From positions 1 through 56,247 of IMG/VR virus record IMGVR_UViG_3300049427_000022: a stretch of 56,247 nt of DNA. One strand, 5' to 3'. The number at the start of each line of letters is the position of its first letter. The first letter of the stretch is position 1. Below are positions 1,069-52,868 of the stretch, piece by piece. The notes below the pieces were generated by a model. The model was not told where the DNA came from, did no database searches, and saw nothing but the letters and a program-made list of their open reading frames with translations. Both the position numbers and the translations under genes were made by a program. Source of the DNA: a virus.

Positions 1069-1572
1069 TTACGCGAATACCGATTTACGGCAGTATCGGC
1101 ATTTCCCGCATGTTACCGCGTCGGCTTCCTGGTCAGTAATGCTTTCCGGGTCTATTGTTCCAGCCAGGCCGCAGCCAGTGGAATTTTTGCTATCTGGTTC
1201 GTACAAGTGTATTTTCGGGTTTCCCTGGTAGCGTACCGTTTGTACGGTCTTCGGTAGCATTACGCCCAGGTCTGCGGCTACCCGCTTTTCGACTGCCGCG
1301 AAGTCTACAGCGATTACTGGCGCAGCTGCTATACTTGCCGCATGTTCGCCCCAGCCCAGCAATTCAAGCAGTGCTTTCGCCCTTTGCGCTTTATCCGGGT
1401 TAGCTGCCATATAGAGAGGTATCATTTCTTCCAGCAGTTCACGCTGGCCGAATTCCGGGCCGTTCGCTTTCGCTAGGGCATCGAGCAGCGCGCGCGTTTC
1501 CGGGACTAACTTTGTGCTATATACTACCAGGGTCTTACCTTCCGCGATTCGTTTACCTTTTGCCATTTGCAT
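1069..1572 (-). CDS. Hypothetical protein with C-terminal CxxC zinc motif
   Basis: 167 residues (165 from the second Met at 1566). The N-terminal half looks helical (KLVPETRALLDALAKANG), and the C-terminus carries CGKCRYC plus an isolated TGCG, suggesting a zinc site. Two starts are possible: ATG at 1572 is very close to GAGGGCGG, while ATG at 1566 has better spacing. First gene after the promoter at 1609-1638. Not recognised. Confidence 0.7.
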   Translation of the reverse strand: MQMAKGKRIAEGKTLVVYSTKLVPETRALLDALAKANGPEFGQRELLEEMIPLYMAANPDKAQRAKALLELLGWGEHAASIAAAPVIAVDFAAVEKRVAADLGVMLPKTVQTVRYQGNPKIHLYEPDSKNSTGCGLAGTIDPESITDQEADAVTCGKCRYCRKSVFA

Positions 1573-1638: not shown

Positions 1639-1693
1639 GACTTTTAATGACTGATTAAGGGCTGCAACTATGATATATAAAACCATCGTTCCG

Positions 1694-1911
1694 AAAGGGG
1701 GGTACTTCTATACAAAAAGTAAAAGCCGGGTAAGTGTACTAAGAAAGTACCCCCCCGGCAAATTACAGCGTTCTTATATTAAAAGTTCAAAAGAGTAGAA
1801 CAAAGAAGTAATACTATAAGTAATAGATACTAATAATAACTATATATATATATAACTATTATTATTTATTATTTATATATTTATATTATATATTAGTAGT
1901 CTTTTTACGCT
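1694..1911 (+). repeat. Element E1: G/C-tract inverted repeat plus AT-rich block, copy 1
   Basis: This fills most of the gene-free stretch 1573-1919. It starts with an 11-bp inverted repeat, GGGGGGTACTT (1697-1707) with AAGTACCCCCC (1745-1755), loop 37. A conserved TTACAGC...CTTATAT segment follows, and then an AT-only block (about 1834-1895). The same parts in the same order occur on the opposite strand at 31919-32123, with more than 40 identical bases in the AT block. No ORF of note. Orientation is opposite to the flanking genes. Function unknown. Confidence 0.85.
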
Positions 1912-3249: not shown

Positions 3250-3285
3250 AAAGCCTACGCTGTAAGGTTTTTCAGCGTAGGCTTT
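3250..3285 (+). terminator. Strong hairpin terminator
   Basis: A 13-bp perfect stem, AAAGCCTACGCTG (3250-3262) with CAGCGTAGGCTTT (3273-3285), 10-nt loop. It is followed by ATTTTTG on the plus strand and preceded by an A-run that gives a T-tract on the minus strand. Probably bidirectional; it lies between the XRE gene and the accessory promoters. Confidence 0.8.
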
Positions 3286-6286: not shown

Positions 6287-8824
6287 CTATCTAAACGCGA
6301 TGTACTGATATACAGCGCCGTTAAAATTCGTCCATGCGTGCTGGAATGTATCCCCGTTGTATCCAACGGAAATCTTATTTGTGCCTATGACTAATTGCGG
6401 CGTCCCAGCCATCGAGAGTATTGAAGGATAAGCCGTAGTTACTATGCCACCCCTATTGTATCCACCATCCCCGGAGGGGATGTAAACCATGCTAGGTGTG
6501 AAAGGTAGCGCAATATCCCTCGAAGCCGTTCCTGTGCCTACGTATGAACCAGAAACAACGGGGTTGTAGTCCGTTCTTAAAAACTCAGCCCAAGCCGTCC
6601 AAATGCCCGCTGCTTGCCTGCGCTCCCATACGCGATTAGTGTAAAAATCACGGGCGGTCTGCGTTACATATCCCCCAGCTTCTGAGTAATTCGTTACATC
6701 TAGGTAAAGCCAATCAGTAACCCCAGCAGGTCTGTTGACGGTTAGCACACCGTTATACTTACCGTTAGTGATTACTGTATCTAGGTTAGTCCCAGAAGCT
6801 AAGAAAATCGTTTCATTGCTAACCTGTCTCCAAGTACTCCAGACGTTGTTTATCTGTCTTCTCGTCCAGAATCTACGGTCATCAGTAGCGTAAGCGTTTT
6901 GTACCGTGTACTCGCCAGCTGGATACCTGGAAACCTCTATAAAGAAGTTCATTCCCGCTGCAGGAACGTTTGTGCCTTGAGGTACGTGATACCAACCGTC
7001 TGTTTTAAGAGTATCAGCGTTTACGCCTGTACCTTGATTGACCATCTCCCGACTTACTAGAGTCCAAGTAGTCCAAACGCCCACTGCTGTTTCCCTGCGT
7101 GTCCATACTCGATTATCGTTGAACGAATATGCAGTTTGTGCAGCGAAGTTCGCAGCGTTATTAATGCTTATTACGTCAATCAAAAATCCACCGCCCGCTA
7201 TCGGACCGTTTACTGCGTTAAATACGCGGTATCTACCTGTAGTTATTAGAGTGTTAATATTAGTGTTGTCAGTAAGAATGACCGTAGTATTCGCCCTGTT
7301 AGCTTTCGCCGCAATCTCTTGCAGCGCGCCTTCTACGTCAGTGGAGGTGATAATATTACCAGCGTCAGCGACAGTAATTATAGATGCGGCATGAGTTGCA
7401 GGATGAGTATAGTTGGTTGCACCTTCCGCTACCCCGGCGAGCTTTGTCTTTTCAGCAGTTGTAAAGTCCTCCATAGACAGCTGCTTACCCGCAACCTTAT
7501 CGACCTTATCCGTGTTTAACGCATCGAGCGATTTGTCCGGCGCTGTGTACCAGTTCGCTTTACCTGTAATGCCCTTAATCATATTTCCGAGTTGCCCCAG
7601 AAGCGACGTAAGGGCGTCGGCTGCACCCGCTGTCTGTACTGTCGTGTCAACGATTTGCCTTGTACCTATCGCTGTGTCGTTAACTGCGCCAGCTGCTAGG
7701 CCTGCCGAAGTAATTTTCGGGGCGTCGCCAGCTGCGCCTGTATGTTTATGACCAACTGCGGCGTCAAATTTCGTATTTACAGCTTCCAGGGAAATAGCCG
7801 GGGCTGTGTACCAAGCAGCCTTCCCGGTAATCTGCTTTGCCATATTCCCCAGCATGGAAAGGTTATTTGTAAGAGTTTGCGCCCCGGCCGCCGCTACTGT
7901 CGTATCTACTAAAGTACGGTTCCCTATTTTTGCGTCAGTCCCCCCGCCGTCCTTTAGCTGAATATGGCCGTTAGTAAATTGTAGACTTACATCGTCAGGC
8001 GTTCCCCCTACCTGGACTAACGTAAGCGCAGTCGTGCCTAGGGTAATTACTCCCGTTGTCGTTAGCTGCCAAGTCGTGAACTGGTTAACTGTACCTTCCA
8101 ATACTCGCGCAGACATCCCAGTCGTAACCTTTCCTGCTGTATCTGCGTCGACTGCTCGCGACCAGGCTGCGGCCTGTACGACGTATACGCCATTTTGTGC
8201 TGCTGTCGTCTGATTCTTTACAAGTACCCGGTCGCCTGCTATTACAGCAACGCCGTCAATCGTTTGCGGGGCTGATAGGTTAATATTCGCGGTAGTTGCA
8301 GCCCTTACCGCGTCTTTTGCGTCACGGATATACAAAAAGCCCCTGTTTACTATATCGCTGTCTACAGCTGGGTCTGCTACCTGGGCGCGCCCGGCTACGT
8401 CGCGCTTCATAAGTACGGAAGCCGTCGCTGCGTTTGTGGCTGCGGTAAGCGTACTGTTCGTCGCTTCTAATGTAGTCGCCGGGGATGTGTACCAGTTCGC
8501 CTTCCCGGTTATGCCTTTTATCATGTTCCCGATTTGTCCCAGTAGCGTAGTTGCTGTAGCAGCAGCCCCCGCCGTTTGCGCTGTGGAATCGGTTATCGTG
8601 CGATTTCCTATAATGGCGTCTGTTGCTGCGCCTGCTACCAGGCCAGCGGTTCCGATTTTTGGCCCTTTACCAGCCGCCCCGCTGTGGTCGTGGCCTGTAG
8701 TTTCGTGGAAAAGTCCGTCCAGCTTTACCCAATTATCCCGCAGCATGGTATCGGTATTAAATACGTTCTCGCCGTCCGTTGCTGTATCCGGGTAATAAAG
8801 CCCCAGCTTCGTAGTTGTTGCCAT
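6287..8824 (-). CDS. Tail fibre / receptor-binding protein with pyocin-knob repeats
   Basis: 845 residues. The N-terminus (KLGLYYPDTATDGENVFNTD) is typical of Bacillales fibre attachment. Three related shaft units end in IGNMIKGITGKANWYT, IGNRTLVDTT...GKAAWYTAP and IKGITGKANWYTAP, two opening with H-x-H(S/T)GAAG. The C-third has three knob-like repeats (TGRYRVFNAV..., TDGWYHVPQG..., TNGKYNGVLT...), each ending RRxxxxxWTxW. A final tip domain starts GSYVGTGTASRDIALPFTP. It should bind the cell surface. The repeats make it a recombination hot spot. Confidence 0.9.
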   Translation of the reverse strand: MATTTKLGLYYPDTATDGENVFNTDTMLRDNWVKLDGLFHETTGHDHSGAAGKGPKIGTAGLVAGAATDAIIGNRTITDSTAQTAGAAATATTLLGQIGNMIKGITGKANWYTSPATTLEATNSTLTAATNAATASVLMKRDVAGRAQVADPAVDSDIVNRGFLYIRDAKDAVRAATTANINLSAPQTIDGVAVIAGDRVLVKNQTTAAQNGVYVVQAAAWSRAVDADTAGKVTTGMSARVLEGTVNQFTTWQLTTTGVITLGTTALTLVQVGGTPDDVSLQFTNGHIQLKDGGGTDAKIGNRTLVDTTVAAAGAQTLTNNLSMLGNMAKQITGKAAWYTAPAISLEAVNTKFDAAVGHKHTGAAGDAPKITSAGLAAGAVNDTAIGTRQIVDTTVQTAGAADALTSLLGQLGNMIKGITGKANWYTAPDKSLDALNTDKVDKVAGKQLSMEDFTTAEKTKLAGVAEGATNYTHPATHAASIITVADAGNIITSTDVEGALQEIAAKANRANTTVILTDNTNINTLITTGRYRVFNAVNGPIAGGGFLIDVISINNAANFAAQTAYSFNDNRVWTRRETAVGVWTTWTLVSREMVNQGTGVNADTLKTDGWYHVPQGTNVPAAGMNFFIEVSRYPAGEYTVQNAYATDDRRFWTRRQINNVWSTWRQVSNETIFLASGTNLDTVITNGKYNGVLTVNRPAGVTDWLYLDVTNYSEAGGYVTQTARDFYTNRVWERRQAAGIWTAWAEFLRTDYNPVVSGSYVGTGTASRDIALPFTPSMVYIPSGDGGYNRGGIVTTAYPSILSMAGTPQLVIGTNKISVGYNGDTFQHAWTNFNGAVYQYIAFR

Positions 8825-16796: not shown

Positions 16797-16862
16797 GTTT
16801 GTTTACCATCCTTTCGACTGTTGGAAAAATTTAAGGGGCTGGCATTTCGCCGCCCCTATTAT

Positions 16863-16886
16863 CTTTATATCTTTACTTCTTTACTA
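16863..16886. repeat. Short TCTTTACT-type repeat after the tube gene
   Basis: Two or three imperfect TCTTTACT units directly downstream of the tube stop codon. The same unit is expanded at 22363-22402 and present at 31289-31300. Confidence 0.5.
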
Positions 16887-17306
16887 CTAGATCGTTTGTA
16901 CGTAGTTAAAAGCGTCGAAGGTGAAGTCCAGCGATACTTCTACGTTACTGTCTACTGCGAAGTGCATAAGCGGCGCGCTATCGAAGCTTACGCCGCGAAG
17001 TAGTACCGCTTCCTGGCCCCGGCTTGTCGGGTCTGCCAGGACGCCCCGGAATACGAATTTAGCCGTAGGGTTATCGGCTATTTTCTTTTGTAGGCGACTG
17101 TCGATTTTAAGGAAAGTCATGCTACCGCTACCAGTACCGCCCATTACTTTATGGGTGCTTAAAAACTGGCCGGGCAGCTGAATTTCTTCTTTAGCGAATT
17201 CGACATTAGCTTCGAATTCTTGTACGGTTTGGTTTTCCTGGCCGTTTTCGTCGTACAGGCGGCCGTACTTACCGTTAATAATTTCGTTACCGTCAATGTT
17301 AGCCAT
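16887..17306 (-). CDS. XkdM-like tail tube protein
   Basis: 139 residues; GKYGRLYDENGQENQTVQEF, QLPGQFLSTHKVMGGTGSGS and a C-terminal VSLDFTFDAFNYV match the XkdM/DUF2001 inner-tube family. Follows the sheath gene by 20 bp in the usual sheath-tube-chaperone-tape measure order. Forms the rigid inner tube. Confidence 0.9.
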   Translation of the reverse strand: MANIDGNEIINGKYGRLYDENGQENQTVQEFEANVEFAKEEIQLPGQFLSTHKVMGGTGSGSMTFLKIDSRLQKKIADNPTAKFVFRGVLADPTSRGQEAVLLRGVSFDSAPLMHFAVDSNVEVSLDFTFDAFNYVQTI

Positions 17307-22330: not shown

Positions 22331-22362
22331 TGTGTGATTCCTCCAATTACTAATTTAAGTTG

Positions 22363-22402
22363 TCTTTACTTCTTTACTTCTTTACTTCTTTACTTCTTTA
22401 CT
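22363..22402. repeat. Five tandem copies of TCTTTACT
   Basis: An exact 8-bp unit repeated five times, followed by a degenerate sixth, in the 74-bp gap between the scaffold stop codon and the decoration gene. It may be slippage-prone. Confidence 0.9.
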
Positions 22403-22404
22403 TC

Positions 22405-23187
22405 TTACTGTTCGGGCTTGTGGCCAATAAGCGCCAGCATGTCGGCTACGGCTTTGTCTTCCTTAGCCTGATTGCCCGCACCGCCGCCGCCATTACCGCC
22501 GCCAGGCGGTTTACCTTGAAACGTGCCGCTGCCTTTGCCGCCCTTGTCCGCTTCGTCACCTTTGTCGTCTTCGTCTCCAGCGCCGCCTTCGGGCGTTTTG
22601 AATAGGTTTGGTTCCGCTTTTGCCAGCTTCCGCAGTACCAGGTCTACGCTACGTTTGTCGGGTACGTCGTTTTCGTCGTACTCGATTTCGTCGACATAAT
22701 CACGAAGGGCACGTACGACCTGGTTAGGATTAACCGGGGTATATTGCCCGCCAGCGTTTCGGAGTACCGCGTTTTCCAGCGATAGGTCTTTAAGCTTGTC
22801 GCCCATGCTTTTCGCTTTTCCAGCGTCTTTACGCAGCTGCGTTAACTCCGCTTCGGTTACGGTTCCTTCTTTTTTGCCGTCGCCTTTAGCCAGTCCTACG
22901 ATATGCGCTAGTAGGCCCTTATTATCTACGTCCAGTTCTACGCCCGCCGTTTTAAATTCCTTGCGAATGATACGGCGCGCGACGTTAACCGCCATACGGT
23001 CTACGTCTTCCTGGCTGTAGATCAATTCGCCGCCTTCCGGGGCTTTAGGGTTGAATTCCAGCGCTTTGTCGTGTTCATCCTGGGTTAAGTCTTCGTCTGC
23101 CAGCAGATCGGCTACCTTCGCGTCATACTGTTCCTTCGTAAGCTTGCCAGCGCGGTACTTTTCCTGTAATTTTTTCAGCCAGTCCAT
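22405..23187 (-). CDS. Scaffold protein (GP20-like)
   Basis: 260 residues from ATG 23187 (MDWLKKLQEKYRAGKLTKEQ), preceded by AAAGGAA; the longer start at 23319 is unsupported. Highly charged, helical centre (VTEAELTQLRKDAGKAKSMG; KLKDLSLENAVLRNAGGQY) and a glycine/lysine-rich C-tail. Typical head scaffold, located before decoration and capsid genes. Confidence 0.85.
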   Translation of the reverse strand: MDWLKKLQEKYRAGKLTKEQYDAKVADLLADEDLTQDEHDKALEFNPKAPEGGELIYSQEDVDRMAVNVARRIIRKEFKTAGVELDVDNKGLLAHIVGLAKGDGKKEGTVTEAELTQLRKDAGKAKSMGDKLKDLSLENAVLRNAGGQYTPVNPNQVVRALRDYVDEIEYDENDVPDKRSVDLVLRKLAKAEPNLFKTPEGGAGDEDDKGDEADKGGKGSGTFQGKPPGGGNGGGGAGNQAKEDKAVADMLALIGHKPEQ

Positions 23188-23335: not shown

Positions 23336-23614
23336 TTAGATAACGGCCCCAGGGGGCGCGCTACCAGGTTCGGGTACTTCCCCGGTAAATTCCGCTTCGG
23401 TTAGTACCCGGTCGATAATCAGTTTAGCCGATAAGGCGCTGCGTAAGTGCTTCGTTTCCGTCTGTTGCCCTACCGGGCCAACCAATTCGCCTTCCAGGTT
23501 AGCCACTTCGTTTAATACCATGCGTATAGCCGTTCCGTTCCCGGTTAGGCTGCCATCCTGCCAGGCTATCTTTACTTCTTGGCTTCCTACTTTGCCAGCT
23601 GCTTCGAATCTCAT
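23336..23614 (-). CDS. Hypothetical protein in the head module
   Basis: 92 residues: short beta strands (GKVGSQEVKIAWQDGSLTGN), then helix (IRMVLNEVANLEGELVGP) and a proline-rich end. Four-base overlap with the minor head gene shows coupling. Not recognised. Confidence 0.65.
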   Translation of the reverse strand: MRFEAAGKVGSQEVKIAWQDGSLTGNGTAIRMVLNEVANLEGELVGPVGQQTETKHLRSALSAKLIIDRVLTEAEFTGEVPEPGSAPPGAVI

Positions 23615-31255: not shown

Positions 31256-31277
31256 TATCGCGCCCCCTTTTTTTAGT

Positions 31278-31295
31278 AGTAAAGACAACTTTACT
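31278..31295. repeat. Inverted repeat in the late leader
   Basis: AGTAAAG-acaa-CTTTACT, a perfect 7-bp hairpin just before the TerS ribosome site. It belongs to the recurrent TTTACT motif family of this phage. Confidence 0.6.
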
Positions 31296-31331
31296 TCTTT
31301 ACTTCTTGAAGTTTGTTCCGTAAAACGAAAA

Positions 31332-31409: not shown

Positions 31410-31439
31410 ACTATACTTTAAAAATGCGTAAAATGTCAA
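31410..31439 (-). promoter_or_regulatory. Late operon promoter
   Basis: -35 TTGACA (31434-31439), 18-bp spacer, -10 TATAGT (31410-31415). The -35 overlaps the stop codon of the upstream 146-residue gene. Drives TerS through lysis genes, about 27 kb. Confidence 0.75.
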
Positions 31440-31876
31440 GCTTCGACTTTTACCGACTTAATCTTAGCTAATAGCAAGCCGTGCGCCGCTTGCAGGCCTT
31501 CCAGCCTGGCCTTTTCTTCGGCTGCTTTCCCGTTTATTTCCCGGTATAAAAATTCTTGGCCCTGTTCCAGCCCCCGGATAAATACCGGGCGACGTACATT
31601 AAGGATACGCAGCGCTTCCTTCTGTAGGATCGGCCTTATATAGTGAAACCGAACGCAGTAGAACGAAAATGACAATTCCTTACGCAGCTGCCCCAGCGCC
31701 TGGTCTAACATAATCTTATTCAAGCGCCCGCCGCTTACGCCGTCGGTCTGCTTCGGGCCGCTGTTCACTATTTTTACCTGGCCGTCGTCGATTTGGTCGC
31801 CTGCTTCCAGGCTGCCGTAGTTTTCCAGCCAGCGTATTACATTCTTCTTCGAGACATACCCTTCAATATGCGCCAT
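31436..31876 (-). CDS. Possible late transcription regulator
   Basis: 146 residues. IEGYVSKKNVIRWLENYGSL, then a QTDGVSGGRLNKIMLDQALG segment and helical C-half (KSVKVEA end). Size, position directly upstream of the late promoter and the 'DG-x-S' helical layout recall ArpU/RinA-type late activators of Gram-positive phages, but the match is weak. Placed between element E2 and the late promoter. Regulator role is inference. Confidence 0.6.
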   Translation of the reverse strand: MAHIEGYVSKKNVIRWLENYGSLEAGDQIDDGQVKIVNSGPKQTDGVSGGRLNKIMLDQALGQLRKELSFSFYCVRFHYIRPILQKEALRILNVRRPVFIRGLEQGQEFLYREINGKAAEEKARLEGLQAAHGLLLAKIKSVKVEA

Positions 31877-31918
31877 TCCCCAGCCCCCATAAATTGCCAG
31901 TTCCCCGGCAAAGAAATA

Positions 31919-32123
31919 AAGACTATATAATATATAAATATATAAATAATAAATAATAATAGTTATATATATATAGTTATTTAATAGTTAGTAAGTATAG
32001 TAATACTTACTGCTCTTTTCTTTTAATATTTTGATATAAGACTGCTGTAAATCTTAGGGGGGGTCATTTCGCAGCCCGGCCTTCGTTTGCCGACTACTAC
32101 ACTAAGAGTACCCCCCCTAAGAA
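31919..32123 (-). repeat. Element E2: G/C-tract inverted repeat plus AT-rich block, copy 2
   Basis: Related to E1 (1694-1911) but inverted. Here TCTTAGGGGGGGT (32052-32064) and ACCCCCCCTAAGA (32110-32122) form a perfect 13-bp inverted repeat with a 45-nt loop. The AT block (about 31925-31982) is nearly identical to that of E1, and the TTTACAGC...CTTATAT segment lies between. A further 9-bp inverted repeat, AGTAAGTAT / ATACTTACT (31990-32011), is present. No gene inside. Function unknown. Confidence 0.85.
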
Positions 32124-32156
32124 ACGCGACATTTATATATCATTTTTCGCAGCCTA

Positions 32157-41174: not shown

Positions 41175-44100
41175 TTAAATAAAATCGTCTTCCATATTAT
41201 CGAAAAGGCCTTCTTCGAATAGCTTGGCTATGAAGGCATTAAAGCGGGCCGTTTTCCGATAGCCCCCGCTGGTCTGCTGAATCATTCGCATATTAGCCAG
41301 TAGGGCTATGATAGCCTTACCTTCTTCCTTCTCTATTGCCAGCATAGCTTCGACGTCATTCTGCCGAAGGTACTGCTGCTGGGCAAATAGCTTAACGAAT
41401 TTGTAGTAGGCCTGGTCGCCTTTCAGCGTGGATAATTCCCGCAGCTTTTCGGTAATCTTGCCGTACTTTTCGGCGTCCAGTTCTTCTTCCCTTATAGCCA
41501 GCTTCGCGTAGTAGTTAAGACCGCAGCCTGGCGCGTTATACAAGCTTTTAAGGTATTCCCGGATAAAGTCTACATGTCCCGGCCATACGACAATTCTTTC
41601 GCCCGATTCGTCTACGCTGTGCGTCAATGCTGCCAATGCGACGGAAAGCCGGGCTATCTTATTACGCTGGTCAGAAGGCGATACCAGCGGTACGTCGCTG
41701 GCGTTTCCGTATATCTTCGACAATTCGGTAGCTACTTCCAGGATACGGTCTATCGTATCCGCGTTAAATATTACGTGTTCGGGCTTGCGTGACCAGGCGA
41801 ATAGGATGTTATTTTTAAGCGTTTCAGAATTTACGAAGCTGGGATACGTCGGCAGCTGCCGGGTATATTCTTCGGCGCTCACGTCGTTCATTCGCATAAA
41901 TACCGCGAAGTCAAAACGGCGAATGTCCTCATTATTGAAAATGTCCCGCAGCACTTCTACGCCCTGGCCGTAGCTTGCCAGCCTGCGGCCCTTCGGCGGG
42001 TTCCCGGATAGAATAGCGCGTACCCGGCATGGTGTTTCTGCGGTAACGGCCTTCTTAACTTCCAGCCGTCCGTCGCTGCGCGCCAGGGTCATTTCGCCGT
42101 AGTTCTCTTTTTCTATCCCGGTGTCTTCGTCAATCCATATTAGTTCTTTGTCCGAAAGCGGCCATACGCCCCATACGATATACCAGGCCCCGGCACTTCC
42201 GCTTTGCTCCATTTTGTACGTAAGCCCGGTACGGCTGGTACTTTCCGCGTTTACGCGATTCCCAAGCCCGGTAAACTTCCGTATGCCTTCGATAAGTTCA
42301 CTTTTCCCGGTTCCCGTGTCCCCGACTATTTTTAATTCCAGCCAGCCCCGAATCGGTAAGCTTGTCCAAGGTACATTAAAGCGTAGGACGCTATGGTAAG
42401 TAAGTAAAACGCCTAGCAGCGTTTCATCGCGTTCTACGATTTTCGTTACATTGTAAGTAAGATCGGCGCATATGGCCGCCAGCTTTTCTTCGATTGCCGC
42501 AGCTGTGTAGTTTGCCGGGCGCAGGGCTTCCATGCTTTCCTTTACGCCGTCGTCTAATGTGAAGCTGTCTACGACGTCCTGTAAAGGCTTCGCTTCCTTA
42601 ACCAGTATCGTAGCTTCCTGGTTCTTCGGATGCGGGAAAACATGGCCTGTTATTTCATAGTATTTATTTTCGGTTACGTCCGACTTACCGATAGAATAAG
42701 CCTTCCGCATTACGTAACGCCCCTTACCTTCTTCGGATTCTGTGCTACTTGAATCAGCCATAGGAATTACCAGCAGTTCTTCTACGTTCGTCGTTTCGCT
42801 TATTTCTGTATTGTACTTATTGCAGGCTGGGATACCCGATATAGTCCGAAGGATTCCAGTAATGTTGTCCTTCGCCGTCGCCGTCATTTCCAGCAGTTCC
42901 GGGTCGCCTATGCCTAAGTCCTTAAAAAGCGTATGGCTGGGAATATCGTAAAGCGGGCAATGCGTCTTTTTGCAATCCTTACGGCCCCAACAATAATATT
43001 CAATTTTCGAAGGTACGATATAAGGCGTATGCTTCTTCCCTGCTACCATTACCTGGGTCTTAACCAGCTTGCCATGCAGTTCAGCGTCGCCAGTATGCGC
43101 CAGGTGAAGGCTTACAGATTTGCTATCGTCGTTCGTTGCTTTTTTTAAGCAATGGCATAAGGCCCCCGCGCAGGCTACCCGGTCGTAGTCCTGGCTTCCT
43201 GGTATCTTTTCGCCATGAAGCGCCCGGATAAAGGCGCATCCAAACTTATAGCCATTTTCCTTATCGTAGACGGCTTCTACGACGCTGCGCGTATTGGCTA
43301 CCCGCTGTTCGGCGTCGTATTTGCTGCCTGCGCTTGTATGCTTACGTACCCATTCTTCCAGCAGCTTTAAGGCTTCTTCCTTCGGGTGGCCTGCTTCTTT
43401 GTAATAAGCCGCCAGTTGTACGGTCGCCTGGTTTCGGTCGCCTTCCTTCTTCCAACCGCCAGTTAAAATATCCGTAACACATACCGGGGGTCTATCCTTT
43501 CGGAAGTTGAATTCTTCAGCGAATTTTTTTACGGAAGTGGCAGCGGCTTCGCGCCATTCCTTTTCTTTATCCTCATAAAATAGGACGGCCTTCGGTCGCA
43601 TATCCCGCGCAGCTTTTCGCTGTGCAGGGTCTAAAACAGGATAAAGGCGGGGGCCGTTAGCCATGCCTTTAATTTCTTCTAGGGTCTTCGTTCGAAGTTC
43701 GTCTATGCTCAATTCAATTTTGAAAAGCTTTGTACCGCTGTGAATACTGTTAGGTAGCCGCAGCATACGCGAAGAAGTGTAAACTACCAGGTCTAAAGCA
43801 CGAAGGCCTAACCTATGTACCAGGTAGCCCGCGATATGTTTATAAACCTTATGCAATTCTGTACCCGGCTGAATGTCCAGGGCTTGAAAGTCTATTAAGA
43901 TATGGAATCCTTTGCTGCCCGAAAAATATAAATGAATATCGGTTTCCTGTATTTCCAGTTCGTTCATAAAAAAATCAATAAGCTTTACTGCGTCTGCCTG
44001 GCTTACTGCGGGGTCGCTCTTATAATCCAAGTCAAAATACAAAGGGGCGATAAAGCTTTCGCCCCGCGCCCCCCTGCTTTTGCTGGTATAGCGCTGTACG

Positions 44101-44255
44101 GTACAAAAGCAGTTGAAGTTATTGGCTTCTTCCTGCTGGTACTTCTTGACGCCTTCCGGGTATTCTACCCGCGTCCAGGGTACAGGCTGCCCGCTGTCGT
44201 TTGTATGCCAGGCGTCTACGAATTTATAGTCTGTTATCTGCGGTTCCCTTGCCAT
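41175..44255 (-). CDS. AEP primase fused to an MCM-like helicase
   Basis: 1026 residues. N-terminal archaeo-eukaryotic primase: YFDLDYK (Asp75, Asp77), LYFSGSKGFHILID and SSRMLRLPNSIHSG. A middle zinc segment includes YYCWGRKDCKKTHCPLYD. The C-terminal AAA+ helicase has Walker A GDTGTGKSEL (about 645), a TSRTGLTYKMEQ segment, Walker B ELIWIDED and a sensor-like RVRAILSGNPP, more like MCM than SF3. The layout and size match the prophage MCM described from Bacillus cereus. It should act as primase and replicative helicase. Confidence 0.88.
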   Translation of the reverse strand: MAREPQITDYKFVDAWHTNDSGQPVPWTRVEYPEGVKKYQQEEANNFNCFCTVQRYTSKSRGARGESFIAPLYFDLDYKSDPAVSQADAVKLIDFFMNELEIQETDIHLYFSGSKGFHILIDFQALDIQPGTELHKVYKHIAGYLVHRLGLRALDLVVYTSSRMLRLPNSIHSGTKLFKIELSIDELRTKTLEEIKGMANGPRLYPVLDPAQRKAARDMRPKAVLFYEDKEKEWREAAATSVKKFAEEFNFRKDRPPVCVTDILTGGWKKEGDRNQATVQLAAYYKEAGHPKEEALKLLEEWVRKHTSAGSKYDAEQRVANTRSVVEAVYDKENGYKFGCAFIRALHGEKIPGSQDYDRVACAGALCHCLKKATNDDSKSVSLHLAHTGDAELHGKLVKTQVMVAGKKHTPYIVPSKIEYYCWGRKDCKKTHCPLYDIPSHTLFKDLGIGDPELLEMTATAKDNITGILRTISGIPACNKYNTEISETTNVEELLVIPMADSSSTESEEGKGRYVMRKAYSIGKSDVTENKYYEITGHVFPHPKNQEATILVKEAKPLQDVVDSFTLDDGVKESMEALRPANYTAAAIEEKLAAICADLTYNVTKIVERDETLLGVLLTYHSVLRFNVPWTSLPIRGWLELKIVGDTGTGKSELIEGIRKFTGLGNRVNAESTSRTGLTYKMEQSGSAGAWYIVWGVWPLSDKELIWIDEDTGIEKENYGEMTLARSDGRLEVKKAVTAETPCRVRAILSGNPPKGRRLASYGQGVEVLRDIFNNEDIRRFDFAVFMRMNDVSAEEYTRQLPTYPSFVNSETLKNNILFAWSRKPEHVIFNADTIDRILEVATELSKIYGNASDVPLVSPSDQRNKIARLSVALAALTHSVDESGERIVVWPGHVDFIREYLKSLYNAPGCGLNYYAKLAIREEELDAEKYGKITEKLRELSTLKGDQAYYKFVKLFAQQQYLRQNDVEAMLAIEKEEGKAIIALLANMRMIQQTSGGYRKTARFNAFIAKLFEEGLFDNMEDDFI

Positions 44256-45609: not shown

Positions 45610-47325
45610 TTATAGGGGAAGATCGAAGCCCGGCATATTTAGTAGGAAGTCCTTAACGTTGTCCTTCTTTGTCCGGGGCTTCTTCGCCAAGCTGATACCT
45701 AGGCGGGTATAAACCTTTCGCCTGCTCAAATATTGGTCGTAGAATGTTCCGTCGCTGCCGTCTACGTAGTCGTACCAGGTCGCCTGCTTGTCCGGGTTAT
45801 TTGGGTCGGGACGCATTATGCGACCTATTGCCTGCTCAATTCCCGAACCGTTAGCAGCGTTTCTACCGTCGCCTCGCTGCGGGGTTGCTAGGTGTCCGTC
45901 GTAAAGATTCGGAATGTCCAGCCCTTCCTTTACCAGCTGGGACGTAGCGAAAAGTATATCCAGCTGCTTACCTTTCGCGGTTTCCATAATGGCCTTACGC
46001 TGCGTCGGCGTTACTTGCCAGGCTGCGAATTCAGCTTCGGTGTACTGTACTTCTTGGCGTTCCCATCGTTTAAGGCGTTCGTTACGCCTAGCGCCTGGGT
46101 CAGTCTTCTTACATTTACGCCAGGTTAACTTCGTAAGCCCGCCATGAACGACGGCCATACGTGGTACGACGCCTAGCCTAGACCGGGCGAATGTTTCTAC
46201 TAGGTCGCGCAGCTGGAATAAATAGCGTACGCTATCGGCCAGTACAATTACGGCCCCGCCTTTAGGGCTTACCTTAAAGCAGCTTTCCAGCACGTTTTCG
46301 GCTACCAGCTTCGAGCGCTTCGGGTCTTCGGTAAGTTCCTTTAGAAGCGCCCCATAGTCCAGGTCTTCGCCGCCAGCGTCTACGCTGTTTTCGACGAATG
46401 CGCCCGCGCTGTCGTCTACTTCCAGCGGCCCAGCGAATCCTTTTTCCCTGCCGTATTCGGTGTAAACGAATTTCACTTCGGGAAGAATTAGGGCGCCAGC
46501 TTCGTACATACCGTCGCGCTTTACTGCGTAAGCCGTCGGCCCCAGCCCGGCGTACATAAAGCTTTCCAAGCCGTCTTTACGCTGTGGTGTCGCAGTAAGG
46601 CCCAGTAGGTACTTCGCTGGGAATTTCGCCGCGACGTCTATAAATTGCTGCGCCGGGAAGTGGTGCGCTTCGTCTACGACTACTACGCCTACCATGTTCG
46701 CCAGGGTCGCTACCAGCGTAGGATTCGCCCCTAGGGTCTGTACCGTAGCTACAAAAAGCTTACCGCTGCCCCAGGTTACTTTCCCTTCGCCGATTATCCC
46801 GACTTCGCCCACGCCGCCCAGGAAGGCCTTCGCGGCTTTCGCGCTTTGGTCTAATAAGTCCAGCGTATGGGTTAGCCATAAGGTCGGCTGGCCCCATGCC
46901 TGTATGATTCGAAAGCCCATTAACGTCTTTCCGCTTCCTGCTGGGCTTTCAAGTAGCCCGCCTTCTTGCTTTAGTACTGCGTCTACGGCTGGCTGCTGAT
47001 AGTCCCGCAGTTCGTGGCCTATCCATTGGCCGAAGTCTACGCTGGTGGGTTCGTTAAAATTGTACTTAATGACTTCTGCCGGGTTTAATCCCTGCTGTTT
47101 CAGCAGATCGCGTAAAGCCCTTTCGAAGCCCCTGGGTAGTACCAGGTCGCCCATATCCCATAAGAAAACTTCAAGCTTTTGCTGTACGCCCCAGGTCGGT
47201 TTCCCTATCCGCTTCATTTTCACGTAAGCAGGGTTCGGTACTGTTAGTGCCTGGGTAATGGCCGACCGTAAGGGGATGCTTGCCCCGCGAAGGCGTATAT
47301 TATTGCTTATAGTGATTTGCAGCAC
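45610..47325 (-). CDS. SF2 DEAD/DEAH helicase (RE-res / UvsW-like)
   Basis: 571 residues from GTG 47325, which overlaps the RecU-like stop by 19 nt. Q-like LRDYQQPAVDAVLKQ, Walker A ESPAGSGKT, DEAH-type VVDEAHHF, GLTATPQRK and motif VI QAIGRIMRPDPN. This layout is typical of phage UvsW/RAD25-like helicases that remodel branched DNA in recombination-dependent replication. Next to RecU- and SbcCD-like genes. Confidence 0.88.
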   Translation of the reverse strand: MLQITISNNIRLRGASIPLRSAITQALTVPNPAYVKMKRIGKPTWGVQQKLEVFLWDMGDLVLPRGFERALRDLLKQQGLNPAEVIKYNFNEPTSVDFGQWIGHELRDYQQPAVDAVLKQEGGLLESPAGSGKTLMGFRIIQAWGQPTLWLTHTLDLLDQSAKAAKAFLGGVGEVGIIGEGKVTWGSGKLFVATVQTLGANPTLVATLANMVGVVVVDEAHHFPAQQFIDVAAKFPAKYLLGLTATPQRKDGLESFMYAGLGPTAYAVKRDGMYEAGALILPEVKFVYTEYGREKGFAGPLEVDDSAGAFVENSVDAGGEDLDYGALLKELTEDPKRSKLVAENVLESCFKVSPKGGAVIVLADSVRYLFQLRDLVETFARSRLGVVPRMAVVHGGLTKLTWRKCKKTDPGARRNERLKRWERQEVQYTEAEFAAWQVTPTQRKAIMETAKGKQLDILFATSQLVKEGLDIPNLYDGHLATPQRGDGRNAANGSGIEQAIGRIMRPDPNNPDKQATWYDYVDGSDGTFYDQYLSRRKVYTRLGISLAKKPRTKKDNVKDFLLNMPGFDLPL

Positions 47326-47813
47326 GTTACCAGCCCTTTCAAGTCGTAAGAATTATCTGCCGCTATCCTGGGAAGGTTCGCGCTGGGTATTGCTCCCTGC
47401 GTTAATTCTTCCAGGGTAACGTATTGGCGTTCCTTGCTTTGCATGTACTGTATAGCCCTGGCTAAGCGGAAGGCGTAAGCTTCGTCTATCCCTTTTGCTT
47501 GGTTATTGAAGCTTATGAATACCAGGCCGTAATTACGGGCCAGGCAGCGGTCGAAAAGCAGCAGCCCTTTTACCTGGTCGGGACGAAGGAAACTTAATTC
47601 GAAGCGGTCGCTTTCCGTCCGTTTTAGTTCGGCCAGTATGTTTACGTCTTCCAGCAGTACGATTTCGTCGGCTGGGCGGGTTCCCCCGCCGCCGTCTTTG
47701 ATTCTCATACGCCAGCAGTTCGGGATATGTGCCCAGCTGCTTCTTATTTCAGACTGGAAGTCTTCGCCCCGCTGCTGCCGTTCCCGCTGTAAGTCGCGCT
47801 GGTTCGCGTTCAT
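47307..47813 (-). CDS. RecU-like PD-(D/E)xK nuclease
   Basis: 168 residues. RGEDFQSEIRSSW, GTRPADEIVLLEDVNILAEL followed by Lys (the D...ExK core) and QVKGLLLFDRCLARNYGLVF match RecU-type Holliday-junction resolvases and phage relatives. Start overlaps the upstream stop (TAATG). Probably resolves or cleaves branched DNA before packaging. Confidence 0.75.
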   Translation of the reverse strand: MNANQRDLQRERQQRGEDFQSEIRSSWAHIPNCWRMRIKDGGGGTRPADEIVLLEDVNILAELKRTESDRFELSFLRPDQVKGLLLFDRCLARNYGLVFISFNNQAKGIDEAYAFRLARAIQYMQSKERQYVTLEELTQGAIPSANLPRIAADNSYDLKGLVTCCKSL

Positions 47814-48034
47814 TAGTGCCCCCTAGCTGGGGTATAAAGCGGGGCCACATTTCCGTATTTTGTCGTAGTAATCGTTACCTTGACGTTACCGTTCTTCTGC
47901 GCCCATACGCTTACAATGCTTGATACTTTGCGTGTTTCCCCTTCGGCGTTTACAATTTCCTGCCCGCGTTTCACGATTTCCCCCGGCTTTAATGTAATCG
48001 TACCCTGGGGCGCTTTGCGGCAATTATTTTTCAT
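47813..48034 (-). CDS. Hypothetical beta-barrel-like protein
   Basis: 73 residues (GTITLKPGEIVKRGQEIVNA; VKVTITTTKYGNVAPLYTPA), a small beta-rich protein coupled to the RecU-like gene by a 1-bp overlap. No known family. Confidence 0.62.
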   Translation of the reverse strand: MKNNCRKAPQGTITLKPGEIVKRGQEIVNAEGETRKVSSIVSVWAQKNGNVKVTITTTKYGNVAPLYTPARGH

Positions 48035-48609
48035 TGGTTCCCAGCCAGGTATTGAAGCAGGCGGGCCTGTACAAAGGCCTTACTGCGTACCGAATCGGAA
48101 GCCTGTACGGCTTTGTCCCAGCCGTCGCGGGCAATCGAAGCGGTAACTTCCAGGGCGGCCAGTTCGCCTTCGACTTCTGCCAGGCGCTTACGGCTTTCGC
48201 TGCTTACCGTCCTGCGGAAAGCGTCGCGGGCCATATCATTTGAAAAGGGATACGTAACGCCGTTCCATTCGACGCTTTTACCATCGGCTTTAAGGCCGTT
48301 CATAATAGCGTCTGATTCTTCCAATTTAATTTGGTTCTCTAGCTTCCAGCGTTCTTTAAGCAGATCGGCCTTATTGCCGTAAGCAGCTTCGCGCTGGTCG
48401 CCTTTGTTTAGAATGTCGTCTACGCTTGCGTCTAGTTGGGTTACGGTATCGGCTAGGATTTGCGCCCCAATTACGCGGAAATGTTCAGCCGGGATACTGC
48501 GGGAAGCTGGCCCCAGTAATGCCGCTACCGTGTCGCGTACTTCTTCTTTACCGTAGGCCAGTACCAGGTCTGCCGTTACTGCGCCAATTTCTTTTAATTT
48601 ATCTACCAT
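48031..48609 (-). CDS. Hypothetical helical protein of the recombination module
   Basis: 192 residues, largely helical (LLGPASRSIPAEHFRVIGAQ; RKRLAEVEGELAALEVTASI). Four-base overlap with the next gene. No nuclease or ATPase motif is visible. Confidence 0.62.
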   Translation of the reverse strand: MVDKLKEIGAVTADLVLAYGKEEVRDTVAALLGPASRSIPAEHFRVIGAQILADTVTQLDASVDDILNKGDQREAAYGNKADLLKERWKLENQIKLEESDAIMNGLKADGKSVEWNGVTYPFSNDMARDAFRRTVSSESRKRLAEVEGELAALEVTASIARDGWDKAVQASDSVRSKAFVQARLLQYLAGNQ

Positions 48610-48850
48610 TTCGTTTATCTCCCTTCGATTGTAAAGAAGTCTTTACTACAAACATTTCGCCGCCTGTCGGGTGTCCGTTTTCGTCTACGGCCCAGGTTCG
48701 CATAATTACGTAACTGCCGCAGGCGGTGCAAATGGTCTTACATGTGCAGTCGTCCAGCCAAGCGAAGCTTAATTCGGTAAGTTCGGGCGTCATAGGTTCC
48801 GAGTGGCCGCAATGGCCGCAGCCTACCATTTCCTGCTGCTGCTCTGTCAT
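48599..48850 (-). CDS. Zinc-ribbon protein
   Basis: 83 residues with GCGHCGHSE near the start and CKTICTACGSYV later: two cysteine pairs of a zinc ribbon. Coupled to its upstream neighbour by ATGA. Possibly DNA-binding; function unknown. Confidence 0.68.
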   Translation of the reverse strand: MTEQQQEMVGCGHCGHSEPMTPELTELSFAWLDDCTCKTICTACGSYVIMRTWAVDENGHPTGGEMFVVKTSLQSKGDKRNGR

Positions 48851-49110
48851 TCAGTAGCAGCCAATAGTACTAATAAGGTCAATTCGGTTAATTCCTTTAC
48901 TACAGGCTCGATATGCACCACATGACTTTCGCGCTGGTGCTTTTTCTCGTCCCAGTACATAAGGTGCAGCTGTAAAGGGTCGGCGCTGGTGATAATGGCG
49001 TTATATTCACGAAGCTTATAGCCGCTTCTTTCTTTGATTACTACCCGAACGGCTACGCCTGGATTAAAAACATTCATATCAAAAGTGGGTTTATTGACTA
49101 CGCCTTTCAT
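48847..49110 (-). CDS. Hypothetical small protein
   Basis: 87 residues: beta-rich N-half (VAVRVVIKERSGYKLREYNA), hydrophobic helical end (ELTELTLLVLLAATE). Between the SbcD-like gene (5 bp) and the zinc ribbon. Not recognised. Confidence 0.6.
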   Translation of the reverse strand: MKGVVNKPTFDMNVFNPGVAVRVVIKERSGYKLREYNAIITSADPLQLHLMYWDEKKHQRESHVVHIEPVVKELTELTLLVLLAATE

Positions 49111-49114
49111 GGGC

Positions 49115-50110
49115 TTACCTCCCTTCGGCCATGCGGGCCGCTTCGATTTTTTCCAAGGCCAACCGCACGACTTCCGGGGCTAGCCCTTCCTTTTCAGCTA
49201 CTGCTTCGATAATTTGGTTAATGTCCAGGCGCACCTTTTCGCCGCTGGCGGTTTGAATTAGCGCCGCGAAGTTTTCCATAGCGTACTGGCGCTGCTGGTC
49301 TTTCTCGATACGGCTACGGTCTAGGACGTCTTCGCCGGGCTTCGCGCTTTGAAGCGGTAGCAGTTCAATATGTCCCTGACTGCCTTCAATAGTAATTAGT
49401 GCGGCCTGTATCGTACGGCTTATTTCGCCCTGACTTGCAGACAATCGAGTAAGACTTCCAGGGTTACAGAAAATAACGCCGTCTCCCCTTCGGTAAATCC
49501 CATACCCTGTATGGTCATGCCCAGTAAACACCATATTCGCGGTAGTCTTTACTTCTTGTATCAGGGTAAAGCGGTCAAAAGGTGGCGTGTGGTCTAATAA
49601 CATGCCATGCGCGACATGAAGCTTATAAGTCTTCCCATTCGGGTACGAAGCCAGGTCTACTTCGGGGCTATACCCGTATCCGTCGCGGTCGATATTACCG
49701 CTGTAAGGCGTAAAGGTTACAGATACTTCATCATGATTCCCGAATATTACAGGCTTTGCCGGGTCATTGATTACGCGCAGCTGTGGTACGAGTCTTTCCA
49801 GCAGTCGTAAGCTGGTATTTCCATAAGCTGCGACGTTGTAACCGGGTATATCGTGATTTCCCGCCGTCGTATAGATAGGGGCCGGGGCTTCGATAAAGAC
49901 GTCGGCGGCGTCGTTTAGAACACTATTTGCGACGTCAGGAAGGTCGAAGGTATCCCCCGGCTGTAAAAAGGCGTCTACCTGGTGCAGCTTCCCCAGTGCC
50001 CATATTTCCCGCAGCTTCGCCTTCCAGGCTTCCGGGTAACTATCGGTACGGTTCCTGGGATTCGTGCCGCGTATATGCGGGTCACCGAAGTATAGGAATT
50101 TAATGGACAT
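49115..50110 (-). CDS. SbcD/Mre11-like metallophosphoesterase nuclease
   Basis: 331 residues from ATG 50110 (MSIKFLYFGDPHIRGTNPRN); a longer start at 50191 overlaps the upstream gene without a ribosome site. Metal motifs: FGDPHI, GDTFDLPD, TTAGNHDIPG, LHVAHGML and FTGHDHTGYG. It should form the nuclease partner of the split Rad50/SbcC-like proteins at 50535-52868. Confidence 0.88.
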   Translation of the reverse strand: MSIKFLYFGDPHIRGTNPRNRTDSYPEAWKAKLREIWALGKLHQVDAFLQPGDTFDLPDVANSVLNDAADVFIEAPAPIYTTAGNHDIPGYNVAAYGNTSLRLLERLVPQLRVINDPAKPVIFGNHDEVSVTFTPYSGNIDRDGYGYSPEVDLASYPNGKTYKLHVAHGMLLDHTPPFDRFTLIQEVKTTANMVFTGHDHTGYGIYRRGDGVIFCNPGSLTRLSASQGEISRTIQAALITIEGSQGHIELLPLQSAKPGEDVLDRSRIEKDQQRQYAMENFAALIQTASGEKVRLDINQIIEAVAEKEGLAPEVVRLALEKIEAARMAEGR

Positions 50111-50507
50111 TCGGGGTTTCCCCTTCGTCGCCCCGACGTCTGCGGGTAGTAACTTCCCCGGTTTCAGTATTGATAGAGTAGGCGCGGTCATGGTTCGTTA
50201 TAGCCAGTTCAGCGTATACGCGCAGCCATAAGCCTTTTTCTATCGCGTCGTACTTCTCATAATCCGCTGCTTGCTGTTCGTTAATTGGTTTTTGAAGTTC
50301 GGCTACCGCTTCTTCGCTAAGATCGTTTTCTAGCATAGCCCGACGTCCATTAAGAACCAGCTGGTCTACTTCGATTTCGGCCAGTGCTACGGCTTTCGTG
50401 TTAGCGTTAAAGGCGGCCAGCAGCTGCGGGCTTACAACCCCTATTAGAATTTCGTTAGGGTCTTTTATGTCCCCAAAAATTTTACGTAGCTCACATTTAA
50501 TACACAT
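50100..50507 (-). CDS. Hypothetical protein between SbcD and SbcC parts
   Basis: 135 residues with an N-terminal CIKCELRKIF, a helical middle and a charged, disordered end. Located between the nuclease and ATPase genes, so a link to the complex is possible. No family recognised. Confidence 0.62.
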   Translation of the reverse strand: MCIKCELRKIFGDIKDPNEILIGVVSPQLLAAFNANTKAVALAEIEVDQLVLNGRRAMLENDLSEEAVAELQKPINEQQAADYEKYDAIEKGLWLRVYAELAITNHDRAYSINTETGEVTTRRRRGDEGETPNVH

Positions 50508-50534
50508 TGTTTATCTACTCCCTTATTGGTTGAT

Positions 50535-51176
50535 TTAGATTGCTTTTACTTCCGACTCTTCGCGGCTGTTCAGTGTTACCCGCAGGCCCTTATCGGCTAC
50601 GGCTGCCAGTGCTTCATTATGTGTGATAAGCAGGATTTGACGGCCCAGCTGTTCGCTGTACTGCTTTAGGAAGTAGGCGACGTTCTGCGAATATTCGGCG
50701 CTTACGTGTTTTCCTACTTCATCCATTAATAGCGGCCCCTGTATTTCTTCCAGTTCAGCTATCCCTAGGCGAAGGCCTAGGGTAATTACGTCTACATAAC
50801 CGCCGCCGTTGTCATAGTCGGGCGGCTTTAACTGGGTTTTTACGCCGTTCCGGGTTAGCCAGTATTCGGCAACTGGCTGCGCCCCCTTGACGTCCAGCAC
50901 GATTTCGAACGCGAATTCGTTACCTGGGAATACTACCAACAGCAGCTGGGTTACAATGTCTTCTATGCGCCCCTTCGCTTGCTGCCTGGCGTAGTCGCTT
51001 GTCTTCTGCAAAAGGATTTGTACCAGGTCGTACTGGCCCAGCTTATTTACAGCTTCCAGGCTTCGCAGCTGTGCCTGGTCGCGGTCTACTGTAATAAGGT
51101 CACGCTGGCCGATTTTCGCGGACAGGCGTTCGCGCTGGGTTTTAATGCTGGTCTTTGCAGCTTGCAGCCTATACAT
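50535..51176 (-). CDS. Rad50/SbcC-like ATPase, C-terminal half
   Basis: 213 residues. Coiled-coil start (RLQAAKTSIKTQRERLSAKI), ABC signature-like GGGYVDVITLGLRLG, Walker B PLLMDEVGKHVS and H-loop LLITHNEALA. It lacks a Walker A, which is on the 479-residue protein. The two must pair to make ATP sites. Confidence 0.85.
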   Translation of the reverse strand: MYRLQAAKTSIKTQRERLSAKIGQRDLITVDRDQAQLRSLEAVNKLGQYDLVQILLQKTSDYARQQAKGRIEDIVTQLLLVVFPGNEFAFEIVLDVKGAQPVAEYWLTRNGVKTQLKPPDYDNGGGYVDVITLGLRLGIAELEEIQGPLLMDEVGKHVSAEYSQNVAYFLKQYSEQLGRQILLITHNEALAAVADKGLRVTLNSREESEVKAI

Positions 51177-51402
51177 TCGGTATTAGGCCTTCGACTTTCG
51201 TTAATTCTGCTTCGATTTGGCTTTCCAGGGCTGCGATTTCGGCCTGGGCCGTTTCAGGGGTTACATTCAGTTCTGCCATTTTTGCAGTTACTTCGCCCTG
51301 CTGGCGTTCTGCTGCTGCCTTCTCGGTTTTTGCGATTGTTTCGGCTGTTTTAGCCTTTTGAATTCTCACTTTTGCCAGTTCAATACGTTGTTTAGCGTCC
51401 AT
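51169..51402 (-). CDS. Small coiled-coil protein between the SbcC halves
   Basis: 77 residues, all coiled coil (RIELAKVRIQKAKTAETIAK; ERQQGEVTAKMAELNVTPET). It probably supplies the returning coiled-coil arm of the split Rad50/SbcC-like complex. Eight-base overlap with the C-terminal-half gene. Confidence 0.72.
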   Translation of the reverse strand: MDAKQRIELAKVRIQKAKTAETIAKTEKAAAERQQGEVTAKMAELNVTPETAQAEIAALESQIEAELTKVEGLIPNV

Positions 51403-51428
51403 TTATATACGTCCCTTCGATTCAGTTA

Positions 51429-52868
51429 TTAGTGGGTATGGGCTACGGCCTGTTCGCATAGTGGGCAAGTGCCCCCGGTTGCTTCCCAAGCTTCGGCCAG
51501 TTCTTTATCAGCTGCCGCCAGTTCATTCGCTGCGCGCGTTACTGCTGCCGCTGCGCTGTCTAGCGTCTGCGTTTTTATTTTATAAAGGTTATAAAGTTCA
51601 CGAAGCTTCGTCAGGCGTACCAGGTTCCCTTCTGTGCTACTTACCAGGTTTTCGGCTTCCGTTATCCCTAGAAGGCTGTCCATTAGGCCCTGGTAGCGGC
51701 TTACGCTTGCTGTCGCGGTATCGTAAACGCCTAGCAGCTGCCGCATATCGGTAATCCTGCCGAAGCTAAGTCTCACGCCTTCCAGCGCGCTTTCAGCTAC
51801 GTCCAGGTCTTTAGTGCTGGTAATGACTTCCGTCGCCCTCTTTACATCGGCTTCGTATTTGTTATACTGTTCCGTAAGATAACTAAGGCTGGCCCGGCGA
51901 TTTTCTGCGGTTTCTGCTTCTGATAGCAGCCATTCGCAGGCGTCAAGTCCTGCCAAGTCTCTAAGGCGCTGGGTTAGGTTCTCTACTGTGGCGGTAGTCC
52001 TTCCCCATTGTCCGTATAAGTCCAGTAAGCGGTCGTACCGTTGCTGGGCTTTTTCTATTTCTACCAGGTCTTCTTCCAGCGCTGGGATATTCGCCAGCTT
52101 GTCCAGCGTAGCAGCAGCTTCGTTTATGTCCTGGTTAATACCATTAAGCAATTGCAGTAAACCTTCGATGTTCGTTTTTTTCCCCAGCGCTGCGTCTATC
52201 TCTTGAAGTATCCAGTCGCAAGCGTCCAGCTGGCGGGCAATGTCTTCCAGCCCTTCGAACGCTTTTAGCTGTTCGACTTTTCTTTCGTACTCTTTATCGG
52301 CGGTCTGCTTTTCGTTCCTGGCTGCATATGTATCCTTCGCCGTCGATTTTATAGCGCCGTCTACTGCTTCCGTCCCGGCCAGCTTACCCAGCACCTTCGC
52401 CCCTGCGCTTCCTGGTTCGCTTATTAAGAAAGGCGCGGCCAGTTGAAAAGCGAAGTGTAAGTCTACTTCGTAGTCGCCGAAGATGCTTGTTTTGATTCCC
52501 AGGGCTTCCTTTACCGCTTCGGGTACTTCGGCCTTTTCGAAAGGTTCGTCGTACAGCGGCTTTACCCAGTATTTCGTCTTGCCCTTCCTGCGGGTCTTCG
52601 TGATCGTTACCCCGGTATCCAGTTCGACTTCTACCCCAGCTTCTTCGGCCTGGCGCTTAATGGTTACGCCGTCGGCTTCGTAAACCGTATGCAGGAAGTC
52701 GTCGCCCGATGGTTCGCCTTTTGCCAGCCATCGAAGCGCCCGGATTGTCCCAGCTGTCTTCCCTGCCCCCGAAGGCCCTGTAAACACATTCAAGCCTTCT
52801 ACCAGGTCATACTCTGCGGCTACCCATGACTGGAAGCCCCATACCCTTACGCTTTTGATTTTTGCCAT
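51429..52868 (-). CDS. Rad50/SbcC-like ATPase, N-terminal half with zinc hook
   Basis: 479 residues. Walker A GPSGAGKT (31-38) after VEGLNVFT, Q-loop region about 140, long coiled coil, and at the very end CPLCEQAV (468-471), a Rad50 zinc-hook motif. A full-length SbcC would continue back down the coil to Walker B; here the gene stops at the hook. Start overlaps a 31-residue ORF (TAATG). Confidence 0.88.
   Translation of the reverse strand: MAKIKSVRVWGFQSWVAAEYDLVEGLNVFTGPSGAGKTAGTIRALRWLAKGEPSGDDFLHTVYEADGVTIKRQAEEAGVEVELDTGVTITKTRRKGKTKYWVKPLYDEPFEKAEVPEAVKEALGIKTSIFGDYEVDLHFAFQLAAPFLISEPGSAGAKVLGKLAGTEAVDGAIKSTAKDTYAARNEKQTADKEYERKVEQLKAFEGLEDIARQLDACDWILQEIDAALGKKTNIEGLLQLLNGINQDINEAAATLDKLANIPALEEDLVEIEKAQQRYDRLLDLYGQWGRTTATVENLTQRLRDLAGLDACEWLLSEAETAENRRASLSYLTEQYNKYEADVKRATEVITSTKDLDVAESALEGVRLSFGRITDMRQLLGVYDTATASVSRYQGLMDSLLGITEAENLVSSTEGNLVRLTKLRELYNLYKIKTQTLDSAAAAVTRAANELAAADKELAEAWEATGGTCPLCEQAVAHTH

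Follow-up and report, generated by a model that had tools for sequence, protein, structure and literature searches.

Two conserved G-run hairpin elements at the borders of a phage late region are candidate replication sites associated with a primase-MCM module

Two similar intergenic elements, designated E1 and E2, border the late genes of the phage sequence analysed here, and E2 contains a hairpin whose arms include runs of seven consecutive G and C residues. What is the function of such a pair of sites? The window, that is, the whole stretch of 56,247 bases (IMG/VR virus record IMGVR_UViG_3300049427_000022), is a temperate phage. A large serine integrase and a CI-like repressor are encoded at one end, the early/replication block lies on the minus strand, and the late block, comprising terminase, portal, head, tail, and endolysin genes, occupies the same strand from approximately 31.9 kb down to 1.9 kb. 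E2 separates the early from the late block, with the small terminase gene terS about 0.5 kb away, and E1, in inverted orientation, marks the far end of the late block. The AT blocks of both elements point toward the late genes. The genes relevant to the following analysis are:

1069..1572, minus strand, small gene outside E1; its N-terminal part is conserved beside E1 in plasmid p3 and other relatives
31436..31876, minus strand, gene A, encoding a small protein, adjoining E2 in relatives; candidate late regulator with weak resemblance to sigma region 4
41175..44255, minus strand, primase-helicase with a PriS-like (and weakly PriL-like) region joined to an MCM AAA+ helicase (phrog_18685, Pfam)
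45610..52868, minus strand, remaining recombination/replication module, consisting of
45610-47325, minus strand, helicase
47307-47813, minus strand, Holliday-junction resolvase
49115-50191, minus strand, SbcD-like protein
50535-51176 and 51429-52868, minus strand, SbcC-like pieces

Neither gene A nor the E1-side gene gave a Pfam match. The first-pass annotation had placed E2 upstream of a late-control gene. The position at the early/late border, in front of a probable late regulator, holds. Late control by gene A is plausible because its family profile shows weak similarity to sigma-factor region 4 (best E 0.0065, SigF). The structure prediction for the full-length primase-helicase was poor, with a mean pLDDT of 59, a pTM of 0.34, and values mostly below 50 in the MCM part. 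The predicted order helix-helix-helix-strand-strand at its C-terminus (residues 947-1001) gives a hint of a winged helix. The SbcC-like protein is apparently encoded by two genes, 50535-51176 and 51429-52868, which divide it into an N-terminal part with the coil and a C-terminal ATPase part; the pair adjoins the SbcD-like gene, an arrangement kept in relatives.

The hairpin of E2 was found as first described: the 13-nt arms TCTTAGGGGGGGT (32052-32064) and ACCCCCCCTAAGA (32110-32122) pair with zero mismatches across 45 nt. Perfect inverted repeats of at least 13 bp with spacers of 3-100 nt occurred twice in the window, compared with a mean of 0.07 (maximum 1) in 30 dinucleotide shuffles. The second one, at 3250-3285 with a 10-nt loop, is a feature distinct from E2 and possibly a late-gene terminator. 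Also present is the 9-bp inverted repeat AGTAAGTAT/ATACTTACT at 31990-31998/32003-32011. The initial doubt that the E2 hairpin is a terminator was well founded: its loop measures 45 nt, neither arm is followed by a T-tract, and a terminator scan returned none at the hairpin. E1, at approximately 1662-1893, is a genuine inverted relative of E2, as had been claimed, with 79% identity over 1743-1893 and 51-nt AT blocks that are 96% complementary between the two elements. The E2 element, spanning approximately 31916-32151, is larger than first noted because TATA-like boxes outside the hairpin arms belong to it. Scores in the following list refer to R1, a covariance model built from 21 element copies:

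1662..1792, plus strand, E1 core with the same anatomy as E2 and inverted relative to it (arms 1697-1707 and 1745-1755); R1 105.2 bits
1800..1893, AT block of E1, where duplex stability over 120 bp is the lowest in the window (centre 1835)
31916..31989, AT block of E2 and candidate DNA-unwinding element, where duplex stability over 120 bp is the second lowest in the window (centre 31976)
31990..32011, E2 9-bp palindrome between hairpin and AT block; also in E2 of close relatives and partly in E1
32021..32151, minus strand, E2 core with TATATAA box (32133-32139), 15-nt gap, G7 arm, loop of 45-47 nt, C7 arm, and outer box TTATATC (32033-32039); R1 99.3 bits
32052..32122, minus strand, perfect 13-bp hairpin of E2

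Three further identities were considered and dropped. Rfam gave no match in the window at the gathering threshold, no tRNA was found, and the two fixed places per genome differ from the scattered copies of a MITE-like insertion.

The aligned flanks of relatives revealed an anatomy identical to that of the window elements. A TATATAA box is followed after some 15 nt by GGGGGGT; a loop of around 47 nt separates this run from ACCCCCC, behind which come the mirrored box TTATATA and a long AT block. E1 and E2 are members of a conserved and apparently undescribed element family. A strict pattern matched 19 stretches in IMG/VR and 5 in GTDB genomes, the latter comprising two in Paenibacillus sp. L3-i20, two in P. 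sinopodophylli, and one chance match. Neither the TATATAA box nor the five central Gs and Cs varied among 21 copies, in which 15-17 nt separated TATATAA from the G run. R1 recovered copies missed by the pattern, including E2 of G005 and both copies of plasmid p3, and it placed elements at the expected sites in G180 and G474, two genomes chosen by their primase alone; p3 and G180 were outside the building set. Two pattern matches were discarded. G011 (L022), from IMG/VR, had neither an R1 match nor a homologue of a window protein in the stretch examined and was dropped as chance, and L033, the chance match in the GTDB genomes (an Abditibacteriota MAG), likewise lacked an R1 match.

The arms retain their pairing even where the G run drifts. 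Compared with shuffled alignments, 36 cells were changed on both sides (23.5 in shuffles; 1 of 500 reached 36) and 73.8% of the cells were paired (70.1% in shuffles; 0 of 500 reached this value), both figures for arm covariation being inflated by relatedness. The variable arms of E1 and E2 resembled each other more within a genome (0.617) than between genomes (0.405; 19 genomes, 0 of 5000 permutations), a likeness which relatedness also inflates and which fits either one protein reading both sites or gene conversion. Elements of G680, G700, and G474 (L216, L217, L228, L229, L087) have an extra C run directly after the G run (GGGGGG, 4-5 nt, CCCCCC), which offers the G run two alternative pairings; in G680 and G700 this applies to both copies. 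Some contigs end within or just outside an element, namely L048 at 1-112 (3300029822_000040) and G737 (2510917027_000005; elements near 622 and 29872), as if the element impeded assembly or marked a physical end.

The occurrence of the elements was then compared with that of the phage genes. The related set comprised 33 virus records whose primase shares 52% or more identity with that of the window; 24 of these records are at least 50 kb long. R1 matched in 29 of the 33. Exactly two places, 23.5-35.3 kb apart, were present in 21 of the 24 long records; G676 had one, and G692 and G693 had none. Four records had no R1 match. G686 covers the early block, and two elements lie on its sister contig G737 from the same isolate (2510917027); G690 contains only early-block homologues; G692 has a diverged dyad and an AT block before gene A; and G693 has the primase and no R1 match. 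None of 33 records with distant primases (22-46% identity) matched R1, which confines the element to a single clade of primases. Among 398 genomes of the class, two encode the full-length primase, and R1 matched in these two only, with two copies each. Among 295 genomes of the family, three encode the full-length primase. R1 matched in two of them under strict filters, and the third showed weaker elements at the expected places under laxer filters (45.8 and 33.3 bits).

Structural genes gave a different picture. The window's terminase was absent from 20 of the 21 primase records tested, and elements were present in 14 of the 16 terminase-lacking records of at least 45 kb (p3 included). The carriers include phage-plasmids of Bacillus whose terminases are unrelated. 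Of 29 additional contigs with the terminase, most of them short, 17 matched R1. By their distribution, the elements track the replication module and not the structural genes. The B. velezensis plasmid p3 (NZ_CP079100.1; L063/L064) encodes a P27-type small terminase and HK97-like head genes and carries two elements, one at each side of the late arc. This phage-plasmid shares the replication module and both elements with the window phage, and its virion module is quite different. The plasmid is an example of modules being exchanged between the elements. In p3, the elements also have gene A and the small E1-side gene beside them, and the association therefore covers these genes as well as the primase. 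The primase-helicase with which the elements co-occur is a candidate initiator/replicase.

Duplex stability was calculated for seven replicons with two full elements (the window, G001, G005, G006, G008, G014, and p3). In all seven, the two AT blocks were the two least stable 120-bp stretches, with z values of 5.1-7.0. The single element of G010 ranked first for low duplex stability, as did the intact copy in G009, where the other copy is cut by the contig end. Across nine replicons, GC skew kept its sign at the elements and was uninformative as an origin signal; tandem iterons were not seen.

We propose, with a probability of roughly 0.6, that the phage replicon has E1 and E2 as its two cis-acting replication sites, or origins, paired like oriL and oriR of phage SPP1. 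We favour origins because these intergenic sites follow the primase module, contain the weakest duplex, and share a large dyad, as in the SPP1 pair. Several observations weigh against this reading: the constant sign of GC skew, the lack of visible tandem iterons, the company of gene A and the E1-side gene in p3, the restriction to one primase clade, and the primase-bearing records G692 and G693. We infer protein binding, melting, and initiation at the elements. The large dyad would be the binding site for a phage initiator, for which the PriS-PriL-MCM primase-helicase, or a partner from the same module, is the most likely candidate, and the AT block beside the dyad would melt first. By analogy with SPP1, one copy might start theta replication, and the protein-bound second copy might arrest the fork and thereby trigger concatemer synthesis by recombination. 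The resolvase and the SbcCD-like nuclease of the phage would suit such a recombination-dependent step, and this division of labour between the copies is speculation.

According to excerpts of PMC6316719 and PMC3485210, SPP1 has two distant origins of like build, each with protein-binding repeats and an AT-rich unwinding element. One of them is intergenic among late genes, and they have been linked to theta-to-sigma switching. Forks are thought to stall at the second origin and to restart via recombination with a resolvase and a nuclease. Our elements likewise lie far apart and share one build, which includes an AT-rich candidate unwinding element. SPP1, however, uses gp38 direct repeats and the DnaB-type helicase gp40, whereas an inverted G-run dyad and a PriS-MCM primase-helicase are found here, and its origins are about 12-13 kb apart, compared with 23.5-35.3 kb. 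As repeats and helicase differ, the elements do not belong to the SPP1 type of origin. That bacterial phages encode MCM-type helicases is long established, and an archaeo-eukaryotic primase and an MCM-type helicase, as in the window's primase-helicase, occur in bacterial mobile elements, examples being PrimPol-PV1 and a B. cereus MCM-like prophage protein (excerpts of PMC5862659). In the same excerpts, origin recognition by winged-helix domains is only speculated, and no origin is described for the group. Our literature search found no description of the start sites of phage or bacterial MCM-type replicons. Two separate cis sites required by a primase-helicase initiator are a further likeness, shared with ori and crr of phage P4. 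P4 differs in its short iterons and another helicase class, and it is not known to have a G-run hairpin.

Since E1 is inverted, the first-pass annotation had suggested that recombination between the copies would flip the late region. We consider it very improbable that the elements serve as sites of recombination by which the late half of the genome is inverted. Seventy element places, a count that includes the near-identical and hence non-independent records G012/G013, G006/G016, and G014/G015, comprised 38 E2, 16 E1, 15 untyped, and 1 flipped junction. The inverted arrangement is not conserved: E2 is reversed in 9 of the 38 typed E2 places, and the element pairs of G006, G014, G680, and G687 are direct repeats, so that recombination there would delete the late genes. 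Early and late genes are co-oriented in the mapped virus records and in further chromosomal and plasmid regions, the standard order is found in both Paenibacillus prophages and in the PacBio-sequenced vB_BboS-125, and no recombinase gene adjoins the elements. Site-specific inversion would imply a constant inverted orientation and both isomers, in contrast to the nine reversed places and the single flipped junction. That junction, the sole exception, is on G002, a metagenome contig of 5,207 bases, and corresponds exactly to the predicted flipped arrangement: the outer flank of E1 is joined to the inner flank of E2, with the switch just after the right arm of the hairpin. Exact identity between copies extends over just 22-44 nt (three genomes checked), so a simple k-mer misassembly is not obvious. 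G002 is either a rare recombinant or a chimeric assembly.

The location of the elements exactly at both borders of the late arc would also fit sites that regulate or delimit the late transcription unit, either insulators that separate early from late transcription or sites bound by the gene A product or the E1-side protein. Gene A is the first late-side gene by E2 in the 38 typed places, and it resembles sigma region 4. The main argument against a regulatory role is that E2, but not gene A, is turned in nine of these places, a reversal hardly compatible with a promoter or operator. Furthermore, no promoter-like or terminator-like match on the hairpin exceeded chance, E1 is not adjacent to gene A, and regulation does not account for the AT blocks having the lowest duplex stability in the genome; we regard it as unlikely. 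Partition, packaging, or DNA looping would account for the two dispersed copies that a single factor apparently recognises, for the proximity of terS to E2, and for the elements on plasmid p3. A pac or cos role is unlikely, however, because the elements persist where terminase and structural genes are unrelated. As to partition, the ATPase encoded at 50535-51176 matches SMC/SbcC in Pfam and not a ParA family, although the p3 record calls its homologue ParA, and the integrated prophages G017 and G019 have no need of such a site. Sites of this kind, rather than origins, thus appear quite improbable.

Returning to the origin reading, we can only tentatively offer a fuller picture, which as a whole is doubtful. 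Here, Bacillota phages and phage-plasmids that form one clade and encode a primase-MCM fusion of the archaeal/eukaryal type would use two distant, usually opposed origins, each composed of a G-run hairpin dyad and an unwinding element; the second would also block forks, thereby setting off recombination-dependent replication, and would now and then exchange genome halves, as in G002. If true, this would be a first origin to be defined in a bacterial MCM replicon and would explain the exchange of whole late modules between two borders. The elements show how unrelated virion modules can swap between fixed borders, and two short, sharply defined, clonable sites open the question of how MCM replicons start to experiment.

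Two other repeat features were observed in the window. A 106-bp direct repeat (73%) at 7537-7642 and 8479-8584 lies within an 845-aa open reading frame (6287-8824). Boxes of the type AGTAAAGA / TCTTTACTTC recur at 1616-1645, 16853-16889, 22354-22418, 23569-23600, and 31271-31319, up to several in tandem with 8-bp spacing, mostly in intergenic positions of the late region and just outside E1. They look like putative operators for a phage DNA-binding protein, and those adjoining E1 are kept in relatives.
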